Positions 2,806 through 18,526 of a DNA stretch of 32,442 nucleotides are shown one piece after another (position 1 is the first letter of the stretch; every line of letters begins with the position of its first letter). The notes below the pieces were generated by a model that was not told the origin of the DNA, made no database searches, and saw nothing but the letters and a program-made list of their open reading frames with translations. Source of the DNA: Alphaproteobacteria bacterium (GTDB taxonomy: Bacteria; Pseudomonadota; Alphaproteobacteria; SHVP01); contig VGES01000038.1 in NCBI GenBank assembly GCA_016869765.1, positions 1 through 32,442 of the forward strand, written 5' to 3'. The translations under genes and the position numbers were made by a program.

Positions 2806-2827
2806 CGCCGGCTGACGATAACCCACC

Positions 2828-3000
2828 GCTCACCCGCTCGCTACGCTCGCCCCTCACCCTCGCCCTCACCCGGCGCTGCGTCCCCTCACCCTCACCCTCA
2901 CCCCCTCTCGCTACGCTCGCGACCTCTCCCCGTTGGGGAGAGGTCGAACGGGCGGAGCGAAGCGACGATCGTTCGGGTGAGGGTCGAGCGAGCGGGAGGG
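2828..3000. repeat. Palindromic intergenic repeat block 2
   Basis: Tandem CCCTCACCC tracts and two copies of the CTCGCTACGCTCGC motif are followed by a perfect hairpin, CCTCTCCCC-GTT-GGGGAGAGG, at 2923-2943. A CGAACGG...CGTTCG element with one mismatch lies at 2945-2975, and the end is GAGCGAGCGGGAGGG. It lies between the divergent starts of the 2OG oxygenase (minus) and the DUF559 gene (plus), so it occupies what would be the promoter region of both. Confidence 0.85.
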
Positions 3001-3031
3001 GAAATCGCCCTGCCCCGCGCATATCCTTGAT

Positions 3032-3559
3032 GTGGTCAGACGCAAATTTGGAAGCCAGATTGCCTTCGCGCGGCGTCTCCGTCGTGAAAGCACGGACGTC
3101 GAAGCGATGTTGTGGTCATTCCTGCGCAATCGGCAACTTCTCGGCGTCAAATTCCGTCGCCAGGTGCCGATCGGGCCCTTTGTCGCCGACTTCGCCAGCC
3201 TCAATCCGCGCTTCGTGATCGAACTGGACGGCGGCCAGCATAGCGAAAGACAGGTGTACGACGCGCGAAGAACGGCGTTCCTCGAGCGGCGTGGGTTCAC
3301 TGTGCTTCGCTTCTGGAACACCGAGGTGTCGGAGAACCTCGAGGGCGTTTGGGAATGCATTGAGCAAGCGCTAGCGGCGCTCGCCCCCTCACCCGGCGCT
3401 TCGCGCCACCCTCTCCCGCTCCGCGGGAGAGGGAAGAGCGCCGAAGGCGCGAGGGTGAGGGCCGCTCCGCGGGAGAGGTCGAACGGGCGGAGCGAAGCGA
3501 CGACCGTTCGGGTGAGGGCGAGGGTGAGGGCCGGAGCGAAGCGACGACCGTTCGGGTGA
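3032..3559 (+). CDS. DUF559 endonuclease-like protein with repeat-encoded C-terminal tail
   Basis: A GTG start gives 175 residues. Residues about 8-117 match DUF559 (restriction/Vsr-like fold): T-D-V-E-A-M-L-W-S-F-L-R-N-R-Q-L, K-F-R-R-Q-V-P-I-G-P-F-V-A-D-F, then I-E-L-D-G-G-Q-H and L-R-F-W-N-T-E-V. D53, E64/D66 and Q69 are candidate nuclease residues. After A-L-A-A-L-A-P about residue 118 the frame runs into repeat block 3, so the last ~57 residues (rich in R, G, P, S) are translated repeat DNA and not part of the fold. No strong ribosome-binding site is visible. Both sides carry the same palindromes. DUF559 proteins have no settled biological role; a nuclease acting on repeats or mismatches is inference. 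Confidence 0.8.
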   Translation: MVRRKFGSQIAFARRLRRESTDVEAMLWSFLRNRQLLGVKFRRQVPIGPFVADFASLNPRFVIELDGGQHSERQVYDARRTAFLERRGFTVLRFWNTEVSENLEGVWECIEQALAALAPSPGASRHPLPLRGRGKSAEGARVRAAPRERSNGRSEATTVRVRARVRAGAKRRPFG

Positions 3560-3573
3560 GGGTGAGGGCGAGC
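3382..3573. repeat. Palindromic intergenic repeat block 3, overlapping the DUF559 3' end
   Basis: This block contains hairpin CTCTCCCGC/GCGGGAGAG at 3411-3431 (same sequence as in block 1), GCGCC-GAA-GGCGC at 3438-3450, CGAACGG/CCGTTCG at 3480-3510, and a partial repeat of the last element at about 3531-3553. Tandem GGGTGAGGGCGAGGGTGAGGG tracts fill the rest. About 175 bases overlap the DUF559 reading frame, and the block ends five bases before the stop codon of the converging glycoside hydrolase gene. Confidence 0.85.
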
Positions 3574-3577
3574 ACCA

Positions 3578-5482
3578 TCACCGCGCGAGCGTCACCGTGG
3601 GCCAGCGCTGCGGCCGATCGAACGCCGTCCCCGGTGCCCCACCGCCCCACGCCATCCAACGCGAACGGTGGTAGGCCCTGGCGCCGGCGTAGAGCTTGAG
3701 GACCTCGGGCGCCCGCTCCACCCCGAGCGCGGCCCAGGGAATCGTGAGTTCCGCCGTGATCCTGGGCTGGTCGGCCCCGAAGTATGTGGCGACGGCGCCC
3801 GGCACGGCCTCGCAGCGTTCGCCTTCCTGGGCGCAGAACCGGATCGCAAAGTTGGCCGCGCCCTGCTGCGGCAAACTGGTGGGCGGCACCATCTTGAGCA
3901 CGAGGCGGCGCACGCCGGCGCCCGCGTCGATCCCCCAGTGCACCTGCAAGACTTCCGAATCGGGCACCGGGCCCGGGGCGAGCAGATCCGGATCGAAATA
4001 GTCCATGGCGATCACGGCCAGCGCCAGCCCCTGTTCGCTCCACGAAACATAGAAATCGCCGAACGGGATCTCGCCGGAACCGGCCACCACCCCCGGGCGC
4101 CAGGATTCCCGTTTGGGCCATTCTCCGAGGTGCCCATCGCGCGCATCGATGACGGCGTACGGCACCCGTGCTCCGACCGACGTGTCTGGTCCGCGGGCCA
4201 CTGCGTGCAGCGAGGCGAGCGACCGGTTGGCGCCGCCGAGCTGTTCGATCAAGGCCTCGTACGGTCGGTCGGTGATGTCGACCAAGCCGAAGTTGTAGTC
4301 CTCACGATCGGCGCGACCGCCCACCGGATAGTCGTGGAACTGGAACCAATGGATGCCGATGATATTGGGGATTTGCGCCAACTGGCGTGCCCCGGCTGCG
4401 GCGCCGCGGGCTCGTTCGGCTTGCGTGGCGACCGTCATCAGGTGTCCGGTGTTGCGGTTGCCGCTGCGGTTCTCGCGCGCCGCGAAGAACCACTCGCTGG
4501 CCACGACCGGGCGCTCCGGCGCCAGCGCGCGCAAGCCCGCGAAGAAATACGGTGACACCCAGCCGTCCGGCGCATCCAAATTGTAGTTGGCGGCGATAGC
4601 ATCGACATGACGTGCCATCGATCGTACGGCCATCGGATCGTAATAGATCGGCAGGCGGTCCCCGAAAAACAGCGCCTCCGGGTCGGCCGCTCGCAGCGCC
4701 TCGGACATCAGCTTGTAGTAGTGGTCCGTGACCACGCCCGTCCAATGGCGCACCGCCTGGATGCCCTCGCCACCCGCGCGCAGCCGCACCGGCTCACGAC
4801 TGGCGAGCAGCGCCCCGAACGTCGTCGCGCCGGACGGCGGAAGAAAGTCGCGGGAAAAATGGTTCCAGTCACCGGCGTAGAAGCGTTCGAGGAACGCGAC
4901 GAGGCGTCGCTTGGTGACGTTGTCCGGTGCGGCCTTGGCGTAGAAGTTGAAGAGCGCGCCACTCCACCAGCCAACCTCGTTGTCCGCGGTGTAACCGATC
5001 CGATGCGGGTTGCCGCGGTGGGGCGCCGTCAACTCGACGGCAAGCCGACGCACCTCGCGCTCGGTGGCCGGGGAGAAGCTGTCGAACCAGTGGAACCGTG
5101 CGGTTCGTCCCAGCTCGAGGTTGGGCAGCGACGGCATCCGCAGCATCGCCGGCGAAAGTGAGAAGCCGCCGGCGCTGTTGAAGCCCCACCCCGCGAGGCG
5201 CCCGCGCGTCCGGTCGGCCCAGGCCGCGAGACTAGGGTCGTAGTCGCTGAAGCGATAAGCGCGGACCGCGGGCGGCGAGGAGAAAAACCCGCCGTCGAGC
5301 ACATTGACCCCGGTCGAGAAGAAGCGCTCACCGCAAGGTGTCTCGAGCCAGGCGACATCGCCCTGCCAGTCGATCCGCCAGCGGCTGTCGGGCGCTCGCG
5401 CCAGATCCGGACACGCCCAGGCGGCCGAAGACCAACCCAGGGCACCGAACACAATGGCGAGGCTCCAGCGGCGGCGCTTCAT
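3578..5482 (-). CDS. Secreted clan-A-like glycoside hydrolase (agarase/beta-galactosidase-like)
   Basis: The 634-residue product begins M-K-R-R-R-W with a hydrophobic segment ending S-A-A-W-A-C at residues 19-24, consistent with a Sec signal peptide and periplasmic or outer location. A TIM-barrel-like region follows. G-Y-T-A-D-N-E-V-G-W-W places a candidate acid/base at E169, and V-V-A-S-E-W-F-F places a candidate nucleophile at E330; this spacing and the N-E motif resemble clan GH-A, including GH50-type agarases. After about residue 440, A-V-I-D-A-R-D-G-H-L-G-E-W opens a beta-rich region like family 9 carbohydrate-binding modules. It is the last gene of the glycan operon; its ATG directly follows the glycosyltransferase TAG. 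I infer trimming or degradation of the exported glycan. The substrate is unknown. Confidence 0.75.
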   Translation of the reverse strand: MKRRRWSLAIVFGALGWSSAAWACPDLARAPDSRWRIDWQGDVAWLETPCGERFFSTGVNVLDGGFFSSPPAVRAYRFSDYDPSLAAWADRTRGRLAGWGFNSAGGFSLSPAMLRMPSLPNLELGRTARFHWFDSFSPATEREVRRLAVELTAPHRGNPHRIGYTADNEVGWWSGALFNFYAKAAPDNVTKRRLVAFLERFYAGDWNHFSRDFLPPSGATTFGALLASREPVRLRAGGEGIQAVRHWTGVVTDHYYKLMSEALRAADPEALFFGDRLPIYYDPMAVRSMARHVDAIAANYNLDAPDGWVSPYFFAGLRALAPERPVVASEWFFAARENRSGNRNTGHLMTVATQAERARGAAAGARQLAQIPNIIGIHWFQFHDYPVGGRADREDYNFGLVDITDRPYEALIEQLGGANRSLASLHAVARGPDTSVGARVPYAVIDARDGHLGEWPKRESWRPGVVAGSGEIPFGDFYVSWSEQGLALAVIAMDYFDPDLLAPGPVPDSEVLQVHWGIDAGAGVRRLVLKMVPPTSLPQQGAANFAIRFCAQEGERCEAVPGAVATYFGADQPRITAELTIPWAALGVERAPEVLKLYAGARAYHRSRWMAWGGGAPGTAFDRPQRWPTVTLAR

Positions 5483-6646
5483 CTAGACGCCCGCCTGCTC
5501 CATCATGTCGCGGAGCAGCTTGTCGGAATCGAAATAGGCTTCGGCGATCTCGCGCGCCCATCGGCAGTGGGACCGGTAGTCGCCCTCGATGGCGTCGAGG
5601 GCTGCGAAGATTCCGTCCCAGTCGCGATAACAGAACAGACCGCGACCGTGCGGAATGAACTTCTCGGCGGCGGTGGCCTGGGTGATGACCGGACGGCCAG
5701 CCGCCAGATACGACACGCTGCGGTCGCTGCACCAGCCGATGCTGGTCCGGACGTAGATGTCCTTGGCGACGGTGAATTCGCCACGGGAACGACGGATGAA
5801 ATCGGCGTAGCTTTCCATCGACTCCGACACCGGCACGGGGTCGACCAGATCCCAGCCGTACCCCTTAAGCTCGTCGTTGAGTTCGCGATTGGGTGTGATC
5901 ATCGCCAATCGGAACTTCCTGGTCGACGCACGGCGCGGCAGGTCGAGGAAGCGGATGAAGTTCAGGTGCTTCGACCACTGGTAGTTCTCGCCGCCGAACT
6001 CGATGTTCTTCCCTTTGTTCTGCCAGGTCGCGATCGAGGTGTAGTGCGTCGTCGGCAGATCGAAGTCGGGTTGCCACTCTGTGAGGACGACGGGCGGCCG
6101 GGTCTTCTTCCAGGGCAGCGTGAGCGGCACGGGGCAATCGGCGCCGCCGAAGTTCTCGCCATAGGTGAAGAAATGCGTATGCGCGCCGATGTAGCTCAGC
6201 GAATCCGCTTCCCCCTTGAACAGACGGATCTGCTCGTAGGGCGGGTCGGTGTCGAGAAAGATGCGGACCGGACACTTGAGATGCTCATCGCGCAGCTTGG
6301 TCACCCCGCACAGGTTGATCAGCGCGTCGGCGCCGGCGTAGAGCGCGAACAGCTCGTCCTTGCTCAATCCGACGTATTGCCCCGTCACCGGATCCCAGTA
6401 CGCCCAGCGGTTGCCCAACCCCGAACGTTCCATCATGCGCCGGACAAAGGCGATGTTCTCGGTCGAGTCCCAAACCACGCTGTTCTGGCGCGGCGAGTAG
6501 GGATTGGCGCCATTGTCTTCGATGTACCAGACGTCGTAGCCGAGGCGCTTCAGTCCAAGCACATAGGCCATCGACTGCCAGGCGATGCCGCCCAAGGGCA
6601 TCAATCCGGAAAAATGCTGGACCAGAACGGTCTTGCGCCGGCTCAT
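5483..6646 (-). CDS. Glycosyltransferase (GT-B-like), glycan operon
   Basis: This is a 387-residue soluble protein. The N-terminus, V-L-V-Q-H-F-S-G-L-M-P-L-G-G-I-A-W-Q, resembles the substrate-binding loop of GT-B enzymes. The C-terminal half has R-S-R-G-E-F-T-V-A-K and S-Y-L-A-A-G-R-P-V-I-T-Q, the nucleotide-sugar-binding region style of GT1/GT4-like families. It ends with the usual helical W-A-R-E-I-A-E-A-Y-F segment. Donor and acceptor cannot be deduced. Its ATG overlaps the exporter stop (ATGA), and its TAG abuts the next ATG, so it is translationally coupled on both sides. It probably adds a sugar to the polymer or precursor handled by the operon. Confidence 0.75.
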   Translation of the reverse strand: MSRRKTVLVQHFSGLMPLGGIAWQSMAYVLGLKRLGYDVWYIEDNGANPYSPRQNSVVWDSTENIAFVRRMMERSGLGNRWAYWDPVTGQYVGLSKDELFALYAGADALINLCGVTKLRDEHLKCPVRIFLDTDPPYEQIRLFKGEADSLSYIGAHTHFFTYGENFGGADCPVPLTLPWKKTRPPVVLTEWQPDFDLPTTHYTSIATWQNKGKNIEFGGENYQWSKHLNFIRFLDLPRRASTRKFRLAMITPNRELNDELKGYGWDLVDPVPVSESMESYADFIRRSRGEFTVAKDIYVRTSIGWCSDRSVSYLAAGRPVITQATAAEKFIPHGRGLFCYRDWDGIFAALDAIEGDYRSHCRWAREIAEAYFDSDKLLRDMMEQAGV

Positions 6647-8433
6647 GCCGTCTTGGCCTCGGCCAGGGGCTTGAACTGCGTGTGATAGAGATGCGCGAAG
6701 GCACCACCGCGCGCGATCAGCTCCGCGAACGGCCCGGATTCGATGATCTTGCCCTGATCGAGCACCACGACACGATTGGCGTTGCGTACCGTCGACAGGC
6801 GGTGGGCGATCACGAAGCTGGTTCGGCCCTTCATCAAGCGCGCCAAACCATCCATGACCATCGCCTCGGTCTCGGCGTCCAACGCCGAGGTCGGCTCGTC
6901 GAGAATGAGGATCGGCGCATCGCGCAGGATGGCGCGCGCGATGGTCACCCGTTGTTTCTCGCCCTCCGAGAGCGCGGCGAAGCCCTCCCCGATCGCCGTA
7001 TCGTAGCCTTGCGGCATCGCCACGATGCGATCGTGGATGCGCGCGAGCCTGGCCGCTTCGATGACGTGCTCGTCGCTGGCGCTCGGACGGCCGTAGGCGA
7101 TGTTGTCGCGGACCGACAGCGGGAAGATCAGCGGCGGCTGCAGCACCATCGAGATCTGCTGGCGCAGCGCCGCGACGCGATACTCGCGCGCGTCATGGCC
7201 GTCGATCTGCACGCTGCCTTCGACCGGATCGAAGAAGCGCGGAATCAGACTCAACATCGTCGATTTCCCGGCGCCCGTCGGACCGACGACCGCGATGCAT
7301 TCCCCGGGCATCACCTCGAGATCGACACCGGCCAGCACCGGCACACTTGGGTTGTAGCGGAACGCCGCCTGGCGCCAGATCACGTGGCCGCGCGCCCCGG
7401 TCGGCGGGAACTCCCGGGTTCCGTCCTTGACATCGGCCTCGACGTCGAGAATTTCGAACACCCGGCGAACGCCGACGCGCGCGCCCTGCAGCGAACCCCA
7501 GGTTCGCGACAGTGTGTCGATCGGTTGATAGAGCGCCGCCAGATACGCGATGAACACGAGGAGTTCGCCGAGCGTCATCGTGCCGCCCATGACCGAGCGT
7601 ACACCGAGCCAGACGATCAGGGCGGTTCCCGTCGCGATCACGACGCTGACCATGCCGCCGTAGAGGGTCTGCAGGTTGTAGAGGCGCAGTGTCGTCTTCA
7701 GGCTCGAGCGGCTGGCGGCCATGAACCGCGAATGCTCGTCGCGCTCCTTGGTGAAGGCCTGAACGACACGGATGGCCGCGATCGACCATGTGGCGAGCGA
7801 ATAGACCGCGCTCTCCTTCTCCTTCATCTCGGTCGCGGCCGCGATGATGAAACGGTTGAGCAACACGATCACGAGCAACAGGGGCGGACAAACGACCATG
7901 GCGACGACCGCGAGCAACCAGTCGATCTGCACCATGATGACGAACATGCCGATGAGCAGGAGGCCGGACGTCACCATGGTCAACAGGCCGTTCATCAACA
8001 GCGACTGGACGGCGAACGTGTCGGCGGTGACGCGGTACATCAGATCGCCGACCTGGCGACGGCTGTGAAACATCAGCGACAGGCGCTGGAGATGCGCATA
8101 GAGCGCCGCGCGCAGATCGTTGATCATGTCGTGACCGATGGCGATCGTGATGTGATTGTGCGCCAGCGCGATCACGCTCAAGACGATCTGCACGGCGACG
8201 ACGGCGAGAACCGCCCCGAGGAACCACGCCGATTGATCGCCCAGGGCGATGAGCCACGCGGGCGCGGGTCGATCGCCCAGGACGTGGTCGACGATGATCT
8301 TGAGCGGCCAGGGCTTCAACAACTCGAAGCCGGTCATCGCCAGGACCAGGGCCAAGGCCAGGATCACGCGCCGACGATAGGGTGCGAGGTAGACCAGGAC
8401 CCGCCCGACCGTGGCACCCTGCTTCGTGGTCAT
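6643..8433 (-). CDS. ABC exporter, fused membrane and ATPase domains (MsbA/NdvA-like)
   Basis: The 596 residues are typical of half-size ABC exporters acting as homodimers in the inner membrane. Residues about 20-320 hold the six-helix transmembrane domain. The ATPase domain has Walker A G-P-T-G-A-G-K-S-T (384-392), Q-loop at L-Q-P-P (431-434), Walker B I-L-I-L-D-E (508-513) and H-loop I-A-H-R-L-S-T (H544). The signature reads L-S-E-G-E-K-Q, with glutamate replacing the first glycine of LSGGQ; the second glycine is kept. Similar exporters move lipid-linked sugars or glucans (MsbA, NdvA). The stop is four bases from the fusion gene's reading end and overlaps the glycosyltransferase start. I infer it exports the glycan made by the GH/GT2 protein. 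Confidence 0.88.
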   Translation of the reverse strand: MTTKQGATVGRVLVYLAPYRRRVILALALVLAMTGFELLKPWPLKIIVDHVLGDRPAPAWLIALGDQSAWFLGAVLAVVAVQIVLSVIALAHNHITIAIGHDMINDLRAALYAHLQRLSLMFHSRRQVGDLMYRVTADTFAVQSLLMNGLLTMVTSGLLLIGMFVIMVQIDWLLAVVAMVVCPPLLLVIVLLNRFIIAAATEMKEKESAVYSLATWSIAAIRVVQAFTKERDEHSRFMAASRSSLKTTLRLYNLQTLYGGMVSVVIATGTALIVWLGVRSVMGGTMTLGELLVFIAYLAALYQPIDTLSRTWGSLQGARVGVRRVFEILDVEADVKDGTREFPPTGARGHVIWRQAAFRYNPSVPVLAGVDLEVMPGECIAVVGPTGAGKSTMLSLIPRFFDPVEGSVQIDGHDAREYRVAALRQQISMVLQPPLIFPLSVRDNIAYGRPSASDEHVIEAARLARIHDRIVAMPQGYDTAIGEGFAALSEGEKQRVTIARAILRDAPILILDEPTSALDAETEAMVMDGLARLMKGRTSFVIAHRLSTVRNANRVVVLDQGKIIESGPFAELIARGGAFAHLYHTQFKPLAEAKTA

Positions 8434-8437
8434 TGGG

Positions 8438-11068
8438 TCAGCCCGGGCGGGCGTCGGCGCCGATCGCGATCAGGTTCTTGGAGCGGCTGATCCGCTCGAT
8501 CACGCGGTTGACGATGCGGCCGAGCTGTACGGTCTGGTGCGCCATGGTGGCGCCATTGGCGAGCGCGATCACCGCCACCACCACGGCGAGACTCGGCACC
8601 CCCAGAACCAGCGCCGCGCCGAACAGCACGGCGTAGACCCGCAATAGCAGGGTCGACAGACGCGACAGGCGCAACTCGCAGCGCACGCGGTGCAGTCGTT
8701 TGGTCGCGCCGTGGTTCTCGGTACCGACTTTGATCAGGGCCCGTCCCCAGAGTCCGCGAGCGACCTTGAGGTCCCAATCGTCCCACCCCTGATCGGTGAT
8801 GACGAAATACTTCCGCGGCGTAAGATAGTCGATCAAGCCGCCCAGGATGGCTTCCTTCTCGGTGCCGTCCTCGGCCCAGTACGAGAGGTAGACGGCGCGG
8901 TCCCGCCACGAGATTCGCGGCTTCTGTCGCAAATCTTCGAGCTGGGCGGCTTCGGTCTCCGTGAACAGCCGCGTGCGCCACTTGAGACGCTCCCAGCTGC
9001 GCACCAACGGACCGAGGAAGATCAGAACGGCGATCAGGGCTCGTGATCGCAGCCCGCTGAACCGGGGGTCGACGGGAGCCTGCAGGGCCTGACCGACGCA
9101 CAGCGCCCACGTGATCAGGATCGGCAGGGCGCCGAGCCAGGCCCAACCGCCGAGGCCGATCGCGACCAGGAACAGGAGCGCCGCCACCGTGACCCACTCC
9201 AGGGTCAATGGCAGGAACGCCGCCAACGATGACGGGGGCTCGTAGAGCGTCTGGAACATTCCGCGACCGAACACGCCGGAGTAGATCAGCGGCTTACGCG
9301 AGAGCAGGAACGACGCCGACAGATCGCCGTAGATGCGACCGAGCCAGCGGGCCTGCCCGAGGAGATTGAACCGCGTCGGATGCTTGGCGTAGACCAGCGC
9401 CTCGGCCTTGCCGTACCCCCGTTGCTGCTGGAGGTAGGCTTGCACGGTGTTGCGACGATAGTGCCAGACCACGGCCGACGGGCTGAATCCGATGGTGTAA
9501 CCCGCGTTCTGCAGACGCCAGCACAGGTCGACGTCGTCTCCCGCCGAGCGATACACCGGATCGAACAAACCGACTTTTTCCAGCGCCTCGCGCCGGAACG
9601 CCATGTTGCAACCGGCGATGTGTTCGGCCGTATCGTCGCTCAGCAGCACGTGCGTCGGCCCGCCCGGGGAAACAGCGACGGCCGACGGCACGAGCGTGTC
9701 CTCTGGCGGCGGAAAATTCGGGCCACCGACGGCCTGCAGGTTGTTCGATTGCATCTTGGCGACCAGATAGGTCAACCAATCCGGATCGGCGACGCAGTCG
9801 CTGTCGGTGTAGGCGATGATCTCGCCGTTCGCTGCCTGGGCGCCGACGTTGCGCGCCATGGAGAGCCCCTTGTTCTCCTGACTGATGATCCGGCAATAGT
9901 CGTAACGCTGGGCGATCTCGAGCGTGCGATCCTTCGAGCCGTCGTTGACGACCACGACCTCGTAGTTGGGATACCGCAGGTCGCGCAGCGACGCGAGGCA
10001 GGGCTCCATCGTGCGCTCGGCGTTATAGGAGCAAACGACCACCGACACCCGCGGGTAGTGATCGAGTTTGGGCGGCAGGGTGTCCTTGTATATGCGCTGC
10101 ACGGCATGGAACGACGGCTTGGGTTGGCGCGCCCGATCGACGAGGCCGAAGGCCCAGTCCTCGATGGCGTGGCCGCCAGTGAACCATTCGTCGGTCCAGG
10201 AGAACACGAACGCGCCCGCGACACCTTCGAGGAAGGCGGTCGGCAGCTGCCAACCGAGGAACTTGGCCTGCGCCTCGTTGCCCTGGCGCATCGAATCCAT
10301 GCCGAGTTCGGTCAGCACCAGCGGCCGGTCGACCGACAGGTTGTGCAGCCGCGCCAGGTAGCGCGTGAACGGCGCCCGGTCGTGCAGGTAGACGTTGAAG
10401 GCGAGGAAGTCGGTGAACTCGGTGTTCAGGTACTCGGTCGAGGGAAAGTTGGCGTACGAGAGGAGGGCGTTCGGATCCTCGTCCTTGGCGACATCGACCA
10501 AATCCTCGAGGAACCGGCTGACCCTGCTGGGCCCGTGCCAACGCACCATGTCCGGCGGGATCTCGTTGCCCACCAGATAGCCGAAAACCGCGGGGTGGGC
10601 GCGGCGCTCACGGACGTTCTGTCGAACGGTGTCACGAATTCGTCGCTGTTCGGTGCTCGAATCGAGGAAGGCGATGTGCTGCGCCCACGGCAGGCCGGCC
10701 AGGACCTTGAGCCCCTTGTCTCCGGCGGCGTCGAGCAACCAGGTGGGCGGTGGCGTGAAGACGCGCAAGGTGTTGGCGCCGAGTTCGACCATCAGCGACA
10801 GGTCCCGCTCGACGACGGCCTTCTCGGGAAATTGGCTGCCGTGACTGCCCTCCGAGAAGGGACCATAGGTCACGCCCTTGACGAAAAACTTCTCATCGCC
10901 GCGGAAGAACGATTTGCCCGACACGGTGATCTGCCGGCCGGCACCGCCGCTGATGACCCCCAGCGTCGGAGCCGGGCTTGCCTCGGCCGACCTTACCTTG
11001 GCGGCACCACCGTTGGCGTAGCGCGAGGCCCAAGACACGCTGTGCAGGGAGCGTGCGCGACTAGCCAC
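8438..11068 (-). CDS. Bifunctional glycoside hydrolase - family 2 glycosyltransferase fusion, membrane anchored
   Basis: This 876-residue protein has two catalytic modules. Residues about 50-330 form a GH2/GH-A-like barrel: V-K-G-V-T-Y-G-P-F, L-V-G-N-E-I with candidate acid/base E169, and V-L-T-E-L-G-M-D with candidate nucleophile E254. Residues about 340-600 are a GT2 domain: V-S-V-V-V-C-S-Y-N, V-N-D-G-S, A-Y-T-D-S-D (D422/D424), G-D-D-V-D-L-C-W-R (candidate base D511/D512) and a Q-Q-Q-R-G variant of QxxRW. Transmembrane stretches follow at about 619-660, 676-692 and 808-838. No signal peptide or membrane helix precedes the GT2 domain, so both domains should be cytoplasmic. The GTG start overlaps the galE stop by eight bases. 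It is probably the polymerase of this operon, with the hydrolase-like module perhaps acting as a transglycosylase. Confidence 0.85.
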   Translation of the reverse strand: MASRARSLHSVSWASRYANGGAAKVRSAEASPAPTLGVISGGAGRQITVSGKSFFRGDEKFFVKGVTYGPFSEGSHGSQFPEKAVVERDLSLMVELGANTLRVFTPPPTWLLDAAGDKGLKVLAGLPWAQHIAFLDSSTEQRRIRDTVRQNVRERRAHPAVFGYLVGNEIPPDMVRWHGPSRVSRFLEDLVDVAKDEDPNALLSYANFPSTEYLNTEFTDFLAFNVYLHDRAPFTRYLARLHNLSVDRPLVLTELGMDSMRQGNEAQAKFLGWQLPTAFLEGVAGAFVFSWTDEWFTGGHAIEDWAFGLVDRARQPKPSFHAVQRIYKDTLPPKLDHYPRVSVVVCSYNAERTMEPCLASLRDLRYPNYEVVVVNDGSKDRTLEIAQRYDYCRIISQENKGLSMARNVGAQAANGEIIAYTDSDCVADPDWLTYLVAKMQSNNLQAVGGPNFPPPEDTLVPSAVAVSPGGPTHVLLSDDTAEHIAGCNMAFRREALEKVGLFDPVYRSAGDDVDLCWRLQNAGYTIGFSPSAVVWHYRRNTVQAYLQQQRGYGKAEALVYAKHPTRFNLLGQARWLGRIYGDLSASFLLSRKPLIYSGVFGRGMFQTLYEPPSSLAAFLPLTLEWVTVAALLFLVAIGLGGWAWLGALPILITWALCVGQALQAPVDPRFSGLRSRALIAVLIFLGPLVRSWERLKWRTRLFTETEAAQLEDLRQKPRISWRDRAVYLSYWAEDGTEKEAILGGLIDYLTPRKYFVITDQGWDDWDLKVARGLWGRALIKVGTENHGATKRLHRVRCELRLSRLSTLLLRVYAVLFGAALVLGVPSLAVVVAVIALANGATMAHQTVQLGRIVNRVIERISRSKNLIAIGADARPG

Positions 11069-12077
11069 GGCCGGCCACCGCGCGAACCGGGGTGGGCGAG
11101 AATGCCCGGGTATGCCAAGCCACGGCGGTCGCGACGATCGTATCGATCGCCGAATGCCGAGGCAGCCAGCCGAGGACGCACTGCGCCCGACGCGGATCGG
11201 CGATCAGCGTCGGCGGATCGCCCGGGCGGCGCGGGGCGAAACGGACCGGCACCGGTCGACCGGAGCCCCGCTCCACGGCGGCGATGACCTCTTTGACCGA
11301 GTGGCCGCGCCCGGTCGCCAGGTTGAGCGCGAGCGATTCCCCGCCCGACAGCAAATGATCGAGCGCGCGGACGTGGGCATCGGCGAGGTCGCTGACGTGG
11401 ATGTAATCGCGCACCGCCGTGCCGTCCGCGGTGGGATAGTCGCTGCCGAAGAGTTCGAGGGCGTCCCGCTCGCCGAAGGCCGCTTGAATGGCCAACGGAA
11501 TGAGGTGGGTTTCCGGATCGTGGTTCTCGCCCACTTCGCCACCGGGGTCGGCGCCGGCGGCATTGAAGTAGCGCAGCGCGGCCCAACGCAGGCCATACGC
11601 CCGCCCCTGCCATTCGAGCATGCGCTCGACGACGAGTTTCGATTCGCCGTACGGATTGATCGGGCGCTGCGGCGCCGTCTCGAGGATCGGCAGCGTTTCC
11701 GGAATTCCATAGGTCGAGCAGGTCGACGAGAAGACGATCGTGCCGACGCCGACGTCGTTCATGACCTCGAGCAGGTTGAGCGTGTTGCTGACGTTGTTGC
11801 GAAAGTATTCGGCTGGTCGCTGCATCGATTCGCCGACGTAGGCGTAGGCGGCAAAATGCATCACCGCCTCGACGCGATGTTCACGGACCGCTCGTTCGAC
11901 CGCCAGCTTATTGCCGAGGTCGCCCTCGACGAACGGACCGAAGCGAACGGCGTCACGGAAACCGCGACTGAGGTTGTCGAACGTAACCGGAACGTGGCCA
12001 GCTTGGGCCAGAGCCTTACAGGCGTGGCTGCCGACATAGCCAGCCCCGCCAGTAACCAATATGCGGCGACTCGTCAT
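11061..12077 (-). CDS. galE: UDP-glucose 4-epimerase
   Basis: The 338-residue product starts M-T-S-R-R-I-L-V-T-G-G-A-G-Y-V-G-S-H with the NAD-binding G-x-x-G-x-x-G. F-D-N-L-S-R-G contacts the cofactor, and the catalytic pair Y-G-E-S-K (Y143, K147) is preceded by F-S-S-T-C-S-T-Y-G. R-Y-F-N-A-A-G-A-D and V-R-D-Y-I-H-V-x-D-L-A are GalE hallmarks. It interconverts UDP-glucose and UDP-galactose in the cytoplasm. As first gene of the glycan operon it suggests that galactose or a galactose-derived sugar enters the polymer. A longer frame exists upstream, but the ATG at 12077 is the family start. No clear Shine-Dalgarno is seen. A UDP-hexose epimerase with other specificity remains possible. Confidence 0.93.
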   Translation of the reverse strand: MTSRRILVTGGAGYVGSHACKALAQAGHVPVTFDNLSRGFRDAVRFGPFVEGDLGNKLAVERAVREHRVEAVMHFAAYAYVGESMQRPAEYFRNNVSNTLNLLEVMNDVGVGTIVFSSTCSTYGIPETLPILETAPQRPINPYGESKLVVERMLEWQGRAYGLRWAALRYFNAAGADPGGEVGENHDPETHLIPLAIQAAFGERDALELFGSDYPTADGTAVRDYIHVSDLADAHVRALDHLLSGGESLALNLATGRGHSVKEVIAAVERGSGRPVPVRFAPRRPGDPPTLIADPRRAQCVLGWLPRHSAIDTIVATAVAWHTRAFSPTPVRAVAGRG

Positions 12078-12485
12078 TGGAGGATGGACGATGTTTGAGG
12101 GATGACGGATGAACCGGCGAACGACCGTTGCACAACTCATCCTGGCGTCGTTGCCCAACGCCGCTATCGACTCGCGCTCCTAGGAGACCGCCGCCGCCCG
12201 TCGACCGAAGGGGCCAGCCGCTCGGCGGCAACGGATACCCCCGTTAACCCCCTAGCGCAAGCCGGTTTCCTAGGGCAGACCGGCACGACGCTCCGGACAC
12301 CCTTGGACCGTCCAGCGCCGAGCCGTTCTCCGAGGCTGCCCCAGGAATTCTGGCGCCCTCAGTCGTTGGCCAACAGGGCGGCCAATCATGGTGGAACTGT
12401 GGCACCTCCCTGCGACCAAGGGCCCCAGGGGGGCTTAACCCTGCCGCCCGTCAACCCTAAGGTGCCCCGCCAACAGGGGGACCGA
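12078..12485. other. Intergenic region between divergent galE and FAD-dehydrogenase genes
   Basis: This is about 400 bases without a convincing gene. An open frame runs through it in phase with the FAD gene, but its residues (many P, R, T) look noncoding. Small dyads are present: CGTTG-CC-CAACG near 12145, and GCCGGT...ACCGGC at about 12262-12285. The end is C-rich with GGGGGG and CAGGGGG runs, the latter serving as ribosome-binding site for the FAD gene. Promoters for both operons should be here, but I cannot assign -35/-10 boxes with confidence. No known riboswitch was recognised. Confidence 0.5.
12475..12480 (+). promoter_or_regulatory. Ribosome-binding site of FAD dehydrogenase
   Basis: AGGGGG lies five bases before the ATG at 12486. 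It decides this start over the several in-frame upstream options of a long open frame that begins near 12102. Confidence 0.7.
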
Positions 12486-16104: not shown

Positions 16105-17535
16105 TCAGCCGCGCGGCAGGTGGCGGCCCTCGACCCAGGTGGCGTGGAAGCCGAGGGGCACGCGCTGGGGCAATTCGATTCGGGCGACCGGCGGCTTCGT
16201 GAAGTCCTGGGCGTCGATCACCACCGCTTCGCTGCGGTCGGCGTCGGCGTCGTAGACGAACGAAACGACATAGCCGTCGTCCTCTTGCCTATTCGACGCG
16301 CGCGGCGCGAACGGCGACTCGCTGCCAAAGCGCCCGGGGCCGAAGTCGTGGCGGCTGGCGCCTCCCCGCTCGTCGTATTTGACCAGACCGTCGAACAAGA
16401 GCGTCGGCGAATCCTTGATGCTGACGTTGTAGCAATAGCGCGAGCGCCGGCCGCGGACATTGAGATTGATCGACGGAAACTCGGTATTGCGATCGGGATC
16501 GATCGTCTGCTCGCGGCAGGCGCCGGTCTTCAGGTTGAAGCGCCACACGTGATGGCGGGTATCCAGTCGGAGCGTCGCCATCATGCGCGCGAGATCGTCG
16601 GGCAACTGGTTGTTCGCCTCGGGCCAGGGGTCGGCGTAGCGGCACGCCAGGAGGACGATCTCGTCGCCGTCCTCCCACGCATTCGTCGTATGGTAGACGT
16701 AACAGGGGCTCGCCTCGAACCAGCGGACGTCCTGCGCTCCACCGCGCCGCGGAAGGATTCCGAACCGCGCCGGCAGTTCGCGATCGAAGATCACGCGCCA
16801 GCGCCCGGCCTTGAGCGCCGCCATGTCGTTGTAGAGCGGCAGGTCGAGCAGGATCGAATAGTTCTCGGTGATTGCCATGTCGTGCGGCAGGCGTGCCGCC
16901 GGCAGATCGATCGGAACCTGGTGGACGAGGCGGCCGCCCGGATCGACGACGCCGTACGTCATGTAGGGCTTGACCGGACCGTAGTCGAAGAACATGAGCT
17001 CGTTGGTCTGGTAGTCGACCTTGGCGTGCGCCGACACATGTGTTTTCAGCGTCCCGCCGAAATCGTCCGCGCCGAGCGTGGCGAGCGTCGCGGGATCGAG
17101 CGCATAGGGCTGGCCCGACAGATACCAAAGCGCGAGCAGCTTGCCGTGGTGAAAGATGATGTCGGTATTGGCCGTGTCCTTCAGCGGCATGTCGCGGCGC
17201 GCCCGGTTGGGTCCCTCCATGATGCCGCGCCACAGAGCCCGTCCCGCGGCCTGTTCTTCGGCGAACGCCCGCGTCGACACCCAGCGATTGCGATAGTGCG
17301 CCCGCCCGTCGCGAAACCGCACGGCGTGGACCATGCCGTCGCCATCGAACCAGTGGTAACGACCCTCCGGGGCAAAGTGCGGATTGGGACCATTGCGGAC
17401 CAGGAGGCCGTCGAGGTCCGCGGGGATCGCCCCCGCAATCACGCGACATTCGCGCTCGACCTCCTCGCCGGTCGGCGCATACGCGCCCTGCAGGTAAGGG
17501 TTGCGGGTATCGAGGCGAAGCGCAGCTTGGACCAT
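16105..17535 (-). CDS. Carotenoid oxygenase (carotenoid/stilbene cleavage dioxygenase)
   Basis: The 476 residues match the 8-vane propeller-like family in length. All four iron-binding histidines can be seen: H170 in V-S-A-H-A-K-V-D, H218 in R-L-P-H-D-M-A-I-T, H282 in Y-V-Y-H-T-T-N-A-W-E and H464 in L-G-F-H-A-T-W-V. The N-terminal L-V-R-N-G-P-N-P and H-W-F-D-G-D-G-M-V-H are family signatures. It should cleave a conjugated double bond with O2, giving aldehydes or ketones from carotenoids, apocarotenoids or lignin-derived stilbenes; sequence alone does not tell which. The ATG at 17535 is chosen over a longer frame because of AGGAGC upstream (17541-17546). It lies one base after the stop of the flavoprotein gene, so the two form an operon. 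Confidence 0.92.
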   Translation of the reverse strand: MVQAALRLDTRNPYLQGAYAPTGEEVERECRVIAGAIPADLDGLLVRNGPNPHFAPEGRYHWFDGDGMVHAVRFRDGRAHYRNRWVSTRAFAEEQAAGRALWRGIMEGPNRARRDMPLKDTANTDIIFHHGKLLALWYLSGQPYALDPATLATLGADDFGGTLKTHVSAHAKVDYQTNELMFFDYGPVKPYMTYGVVDPGGRLVHQVPIDLPAARLPHDMAITENYSILLDLPLYNDMAALKAGRWRVIFDRELPARFGILPRRGGAQDVRWFEASPCYVYHTTNAWEDGDEIVLLACRYADPWPEANNQLPDDLARMMATLRLDTRHHVWRFNLKTGACREQTIDPDRNTEFPSINLNVRGRRSRYCYNVSIKDSPTLLFDGLVKYDERGGASRHDFGPGRFGSESPFAPRASNRQEDDGYVVSFVYDADADRSEAVVIDAQDFTKPPVARIELPQRVPLGFHATWVEGRHLPRG

Positions 17536-17536
17536 G

Positions 17537-18526
17537 TCAGGCTCCTGTGGCAGCGGGGCCGCTCGCGCGCGGCCAGGAAGCGTCGCGCGCCTGGGCATCG
17601 GCCGCTCGCCAATACTGGGCGCGCAGGTTGGCGACGATCGTCGCGACCGGCTCGATGGCGCCGACCGCACCAACGCCCTGCCCGGCCGACCATACATCTT
17701 TCCACGCTTTGACGTTCGAGTGGATGTCGCCTTTGAAATCGGCGCCGGTGGTGCGGACCAGATTTTCCGGCGTCGCGAAGCCGGCGGCGACCAGACTCGG
17801 TCGCAGCCAATTGCCGGTCACGCCGGTGAAGTAGTTCGAGGGCACGATGTCCTCGGCACCGCTCGCCGCCACCATCTGCTTGTAGCCCGGTTCGGCACGG
17901 CTTTCCTCGGCGGCGAGGAAGCGCGTTCCGAGGTAGGCGAGGTCGGCGCCGAGCGCTTCGCTCGCCCGAATCGCCCAGCCGTCGCCGATCGCGCCGCCCA
18001 AGACGATCGGCTTCGGCCAGAACTTGCGGACCTCGTGGACGAACGCGAAGGGCGTGAGCATGCCGGTGTGGCCGCCGGCGCCGGCCGCGACCAGCACCAG
18101 GCCATCGACGCCGACGGCCGCCGCCTTGCGGGCGAACGCGACCGAGTTGACGTCGGCAAACACGAGCCCGCCGTAACCATGGACGGCGTCGACCACCGAC
18201 CGCGGACTGCCGAGCGAGGTGATCACCAAGGGCGGACGATGCTCGACCGCCAGCTCGAGTTCCTTGCCGGCGCGCTCATAGGTGCGGTGCACGATCAGGT
18301 TGAGCGCCCAGGCGGCCGAACCGGGCTGGCGCGCGCATTCGCCGACCTCGGCCATCCAGCGGTCGAGTTCATCGAGCGTCCGCGGGTTGATCGCCGGAAA
18401 CGACCCGATCAACCCCGCCCGGCACGCCGCCATCGCGAGCTCCGGCCCGGAAACCCGGAACATCGGCGCCACCACCGCCGGCAGCACCAGACCCTCGAGC
18501 AAATGCGCGGGCAAACGATGGCTCAT
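17537..18526 (-). CDS. Nitronate monooxygenase-like FMN flavoprotein (2-nitropropane dioxygenase family)
   Basis: The 329-residue TIM-barrel flavoenzyme contains V-V-A-P-M-F near residue 20, a phosphate-binding-type region A-G-A-G-G-H-T-G and later P-I-V-L-G-G-A-I-G-D-G, then A-D-L-A-Y-L-G-T-R-F, all hallmarks of the family. Members are class-I/II nitronate monooxygenases or NAD(P)H:quinone reductases, so the real substrate is open. It is first gene of a two-gene operon with the carotenoid oxygenase. That suggests a redox step on the same pathway, for example reducing an enone or quinone product. The operator-like box shared with other genes here lies about 55 bases before its ATG. Confidence 0.88.
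   Translation of the reverse strand: MSHRLPAHLLEGLVLPAVVAPMFRVSGPELAMAACRAGLIGSFPAINPRTLDELDRWMAEVGECARQPGSAAWALNLIVHRTYERAGKELELAVEHRPPLVITSLGSPRSVVDAVHGYGGLVFADVNSVAFARKAAAVGVDGLVLVAAGAGGHTGMLTPFAFVHEVRKFWPKPIVLGGAIGDGWAIRASEALGADLAYLGTRFLAAEESRAEPGYKQMVAASGAEDIVPSNYFTGVTGNWLRPSLVAAGFATPENLVRTTGADFKGDIHSNVKAWKDVWSAGQGVGAVGAIEPVATIVANLRAQYWRAADAQARDASWPRASGPAATGA
17541..17546 (-). promoter_or_regulatory. Ribosome-binding site of carotenoid oxygenase
   Basis: On the minus strand AGGAGC precedes the ATG at 17535 by five bases. It lies inside the end of the upstream flavoprotein gene and supports coupled translation and this start. Confidence 0.7.

Follow-up and report, generated by a model that had tools for sequence, protein, structure and literature searches.

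A glycosidase-type barrel joined to a GT2 glycosyltransferase and predicted to face the cytoplasm, encoded beside an ABC exporter

In the Agrobacterium tumefaciens Cgs protein, every soluble domain (GT84, a GH144-like cyclase, and GH94) lies in the cytoplasm, and control of chain length is believed to match the glucan to its exporter (PMC10901819). Ring closure or the setting of chain length before export is believed to be the work of the GH-type domains of Cgs. Another family with related modules is the pseudomonad GH17-GT2 family, whose GH17 domain is predicted to be periplasmic (PMC10237404). These proteins and NdvB are proposed cyclic beta-1,3-glucan synthases, in which a signal peptide and three transmembrane helices put GH17 in the periplasm and the GT2 domain is BcsA-like with a QxxRW motif. 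Among free-standing glycosidases, a GH157 enzyme has been shown experimentally to be an endo-beta-1,3-glucanase that cuts linear beta-1,3-glucan (PMC10229575).

Here we describe an 876-amino-acid protein of an Alphaproteobacteria bacterium (contig VGES01000038.1), encoded on the reverse strand at 8438..11068 of the window, meaning the whole 32,442-nucleotide stretch analyzed. It resembles Cgs in that its glycosyltransferase and GH-type domains are all predicted to lie on the cytoplasmic side and in having an MsbA/NdvA-type ABC partner, but it is much smaller, carries an MftF-like GT2 domain rather than GT84, and has a single GH-A barrel of the GH157/GH2/GH72 type in place of the GH144-like and GH94 domains. 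It is not a Cgs protein, as Pfam finds just the GT2 and GH-A domains in it and PF10091 was not found in the genome. The pseudomonad proteins share its order, an N-terminal GH-A barrel and then GT2, and the proposed link to beta-1,3-glucan; however, the fusion described here has no helix before GT2 and an ABC exporter follows it. A direct Pfam scan gives no GH17 match to the protein and no transmembrane segment parts the two domains, which sets it outside that family. The barrel and its catalytic pair are those of LaGH157 and the GH72 and GH2 glycosidases, but these enzymes stand alone, whereas here the barrel is joined to GT2 and has no signal. The fusion can be classed as one more version of a synthase that has its own glycosidase and is partnered with an exporter. 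Searches by topic and by name, with most subscription papers outside their reach, found no published description of a barrel-GT2 fusion, and the architecture is apparently undescribed so far. An earlier note on this DNA had called the arrangement unusual, which is a fair description, although there is precedent in Cgs, and the pseudomonad GH17-GT2 proteins (PMC10237404) also exist.

The fusion gene and its GT2 domain

Codon-position G+C values of 0.65/0.46/0.86 indicate that the open reading frame at 8438-11068 is a real gene. From N to C terminus the product comprises a tail (residues 1 to 44), a (beta/alpha)8 barrel (45 to 335), the GT2 domain (340 to 565), a pair of predicted membrane hairpins, and a small domain at the C terminus, and the full-length AlphaFold2 model has a pLDDT of 82.7. 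The disorder of the tail (pLDDT of approximately 22) leaves the actual start codon in doubt, although none of the candidates would add a signal sequence. The 45 in-frame codons 5' of the GTG start contain neither a start codon nor a hydrophobic stretch, which rules out a missed upstream start with a signal peptide. No second copy of the gene was found in the source genome.

The GT2 domain (9374..10051, reverse strand) carries the motifs DGS, TDSD, GDD, HYRR, and QQQRGYG, and residues 342 to 499 match PF00535 above its cutoff (E = 5.1e-35), placing the domain in GT2. No variation occurs among 52 homologues at the key residues D422, D424, D511, D512, Q548, and Q549. The QxxRW motif of processive synthases is absent and QQQRGYG stands in its place. 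The best NCBIfam relative of this part is MftF (TIGR03965), whose score of 162.3 bits falls under the required 280, so that the protein is not assigned to MftF; MftF is not known to occur with a GH barrel or beside such an ABC exporter. As MftF forms an oligosaccharide and the processive motif is replaced, the GT2 domain may add just a few sugars.

Gene neighborhood and possible products

The gene immediately downstream (6643..8433, reverse strand) codes for a 596-residue ABC exporter with fused permease and ATPase, of the MsbA/NdvA/HepA type, and such a gene follows the fusion in 66 of the 68 testable loci. It is followed by a gene for a 387-residue GT-B-like protein (5483..6646, reverse strand), and a GT-B-like family of approximately 390 residues lies further downstream of the fusion in 29 of 50 loci. 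PF13524 (Glyco_trans_1_2) weakly matches 15 of the 33 members of this family (best E = 1.5e-6), no significant PDB match was obtained, and matches to GWxTD were taken as chance; the family may be an unassigned glycosyltransferase family. On the other side, galE (11061..12158, reverse strand; TIGR01179, 414.7 bits against a cutoff of 262.3) codes for UDP-glucose 4-epimerase. The two genes overlap where the fusion gene begins, and galE is found directly upstream of the fusion at 36 of the 51 non-cyanobacterial loci. The cyanobacterial clusters also contain hexapeptide acyltransferases, a YdjC-like or polysaccharide deacetylase, and a second ABC gene.

Our favored reading, to which we give somewhat better than even chances, is that the protein synthesizes an oligo- or polysaccharide on the cytoplasmic face and that its GH-A domain acts on the growing chain, by cutting, transfer, or closure, before an ABC exporter carries it out. 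To judge from its family, GT2 would sit beneath the membrane hairpins and extend a beta-linked chain in the cytoplasm from UDP-Glc, or from UDP-Gal supplied by GalE. The barrel, tethered on the same face, would act on that chain through the putative retaining pair E169/E254, either transglycosylating it (to elongate it, branch it, or close it into a ring) or cutting it back to a fixed length. Gene order suggests that the adjacent exporter would move the product out, and the GT-B-like enzyme could decorate it before or during export, joined in cyanobacteria by acyltransferases and deacetylases. We infer that the nascent chain is the substrate of the barrel and that the barrel transfers rather than hydrolyzes; the sugar, its linkage, and any ring are inferred in the same way. 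OpgG (PF04349) and the Cgs GH144-like family (PF10091) were not found in the source genome in searches whose controls worked, which fits, but does not prove, a role of the window cluster in place of such a glucan system.

The same genes could instead make a lipid-linked glycan or glycolipid, with GT2 and the GT-B-like enzyme glycosylating a lipid, the MsbA-type exporter flipping it, and the barrel removing or editing misassembled sugars as quality control. The window exporter scores highest against MsbA-type models (TIGR02204, 448 bits; MsbA, 425 bits) and lower against the glucan-exporter and HepA models (about 277 to 372 bits; 371 and 277 bits for the glucan exporters), so that it is equally MsbA-like and a lipid-linked product would fit. 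QQQRGYG where QxxRW is expected and the hexapeptide acyltransferase and YdjC or polysaccharide deacetylase genes of the cyanobacterial clusters point the same way. However, the MsbA-type models also score the ChvA/NdvA and HepA exporters, the window protein passes the cutoff of none of these models, and no lipid carrier enzyme of the WecA or WbaP type was recognized among the scanned neighbors of the fusion. We regard this alternative as unlikely, though it is the strongest competitor to synthesis and export of a chain edited in the cytoplasm.

A further gene in the same operon (3578..5482, reverse strand) codes for a 634-residue GH-A protein similar to GH50 beta-agarases (profile match, 1.3e-34). 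Its N terminus is signal-like (MKRRRWSLAIVFGALGWSSAAWA) and the protein is probably periplasmic, so that a second glycosidase-type protein would accompany the predicted cytoplasmic barrel; the gene is present in only four related loci besides the window. Given this protein and GalE, the product may also contain galactose. Two other features of the window are noted. A dispersed GC-rich repeat with units of approximately 40 to 80 bp containing GAACGGGCGGAGCGAAGCGAC occurs at 2043-2190, 2826-3004, and 3369-3583, in intergenic sequence and reaching into the terminal part of a DUF559 gene (3032-3559), and an RPE65-type carotenoid oxygenase is encoded at 16105-17697 on the reverse strand (Pfam, 5.9e-142).

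The N-terminal barrel and its predicted orientation

The barrel (10064..10936, reverse strand) is predicted in isolation with a mean pLDDT of 94.8. The putative acid/base E169 (codon 10562-10564) lies in the motif VGNEIPP, the putative nucleophile E254 (codon 10307-10309) in VLTELG, and the fold matches, the model, and residue invariance together place the domain in clan GH-A, with an N-E acid/base after strand 4 and a glutamate nucleophile on strand 7. The earlier note had placed hydrolase-like and GT2 modules in one chain, with an E169/E254 barrel ahead of a GT2 domain bearing TDSD, GDD, and QQQRG; the open reading frame, the Pfam domains, and the invariance of the key residues bear this out, and the active site whose absence would have told against the proposal is present. 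Pfam matches residues 46 to 263 with Glyco_hydro_72 (1.8e-6) and Glyco_hydro_2_C (1.1e-5). The GH2_C model PF02836 matches 50 of the 52 aligned members (25.2 to 30.6 bits; cutoff, 21), and PF03198, the GH72 beta-1,3-glucanosyltransferase model, matches 45 of 52 (28.0 to 30.7 bits against 25.9), in the first half of the domain only. GH2 membership was rejected, since the N-terminal GH2 sandwich and immunoglobulin-like domains are missing and residues 1 to 44 are disordered.

The best solved structure for the barrel is LaGH157 with laminaritriose (Z = 32.3 over 289 residues, 2.5 A), nearly tied with GH2 beta-glucuronidases and galacturonidases (Z of approximately 31), and its lead is clearer in the sequence profile comparison (2.6e-23 versus 1.1e-15). 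The LaGH157 residue mutated in E224A aligns with E254. Both the LaGH157 and the GH2 matches are at approximately 20% identity, at which the barrel substrate cannot be read from the matches and hydrolysis and transfer are indistinguishable. The nearest enzymes with tested activity use beta-1,3-glucan, and a beta-1,3-linked product is therefore a first guess.

Carbohydrate modules in fusions are often binding modules, and the barrel might accordingly bind the chain or hold a primer, its active-site residues contacting ligand without cutting or transfer. Catalytically dead barrels usually lose one catalytic glutamate, but here both are invariant in all 52 aligned members (the window protein and 51 homologues), including homologues of other phyla in which barrel identity is just 36 to 49%, and N168 is conserved in more than 90% of members in the different phyla, against an average column identity of 65% over the barrel. 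A pure binding role is thus distinctly improbable, and the barrel is very likely an active enzyme of clan GH-A, leaning toward beta-1,3-glucan.

The side of the membrane on which the barrel would act depends on the segments around it. The best 19-residue hydropathy mean before residue 340 is 1.17 and falls within the barrel, in comparison with 2.2 to 2.7 for the strongest C-terminal transmembrane segments; the N-terminal maxima of the 51 homologues have a median of 1.23 and a top value of 1.62, with barrel segments responsible in all of the top cases listed. By hydropathy, the region ahead of GT2 contains neither a signal peptide nor a membrane helix in the fusion or in any of the 51 aligned homologues, the full-length model has no membrane helix before residue 340, and only a few residues, with no helix, join barrel and GT2. 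The absence of a signal peptide or transmembrane helix ahead of GT2, as the earlier note had read it, therefore holds in the hydropathy profile, the upstream codons, and the homologues alike. With no membrane segment between them, both modules should lie on one side, that of GT2, and the barrel is predicted to face the cytoplasm, in support of the note's premise of a hydrolase-like domain on the GT2 side. The note's wider suggestion of transglycosylation, ring closure, or chain-length control is supported in part, through this structural premise. That the barrel crosses the membrane without a recognizable signal and works in the periplasm is highly improbable, since the pseudomonad GH17 domain that is placed there, though no signal peptide was detected on the DC3000 protein (PMC10237404), is parted from GT2 by three transmembrane helices, whereas here the absence of a helix and the few linking residues mean that both must share one side.

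C-terminal to GT2, the AlphaFold2 model has helices at residues 623-639, 643-663, 673-704, 803-821, and 825-863. The first two form a predicted hairpin (TM1/TM2, residues 623 to 663; 9080..9202, reverse strand), also indicated by hydropathy and loop charges, and residues 715 to 863 (8480..8926, reverse strand) comprise a small alpha/beta domain (a soluble domain at 715 to 801) and the second membrane hairpin. Hairpin loops have a net charge of approximately 0 and the flanking segments about +2 to +4, which favors two hairpins and an interfacial helix at 673 to 704, with GT2, this helix, the C-terminal domain, and the tail all inside. In Nostoc-type cyanobacteria a gene of its own, of approximately 190 codons and starting near or overlapping the stop of the GT2 part, encodes the C-terminal domain at 15 loci (L020, L022, L024, L025, L027, L032, L037, L040-L043, L052, L055, L061, and L076), and it carries no signal peptide. 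The stop is at the same place in all 15 and the next gene is in varying frames, so that the split is real and a frameshift artifact was rejected. The domain remains fused in the Synechococcus relatives L045 and L049.

Distribution of the fusion family

A contig scan of genomes returned 79 loci, 71 with enough of the gene to compare, and the barrel precedes GT2 within one open reading frame at all 71, including every complete homologue. Carriers are Alphaproteobacteria, Cyanobacteria, Myxococcota, a Desulfobacteraceae bin, Nitrospirota, Phycisphaerae, Chloroflexota, and Acidimicrobiales; the fusion is a conserved but patchily distributed family of about eight phyla. It is present in 10 of 289 genomes sampled from the class of the window organism; nine other genomes of its own family that were searched yielded no full-length relative. 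No plasmid record covered 80% of the protein. Members sort mainly by phylum in the tree, in which the cyanobacterial and alphaproteobacterial clades are close.

We suggest, as a tentative and rather doubtful extension of the synthase reading, that these loci represent a separately evolved route to size-limited or cyclic exported glycans, in which a compact GT2 synthase is paired with a cytoplasmic GH-A transglycosidase that closes the chain, probably a beta-1,3-linked one, into a ring or sets its size, and with an MsbA-type exporter, across approximately eight phyla. If the barrel does act on the growing chain in the cytoplasm, editing before export by a cytoplasmic glycosidase fold would be a general practice and not a special feature of the rhizobial cyclic glucan synthase, and the fusion, with one barrel, one GT2 domain, and one exporter, would be a compact model of such editing. 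In many environmental Alphaproteobacteria, and in Nostoc, Scytonema, and their relatives, the product may be a glycan of the envelope or the extracellular space that has gone unrecognized. We also note that a gene for a NACHT/STAND-type ATPase of approximately 790 residues lies upstream of the fusion at 11 cyanobacterial loci (L020, L024, L025, L026, L032, L037, L040, L041, L043, L052, and L061).
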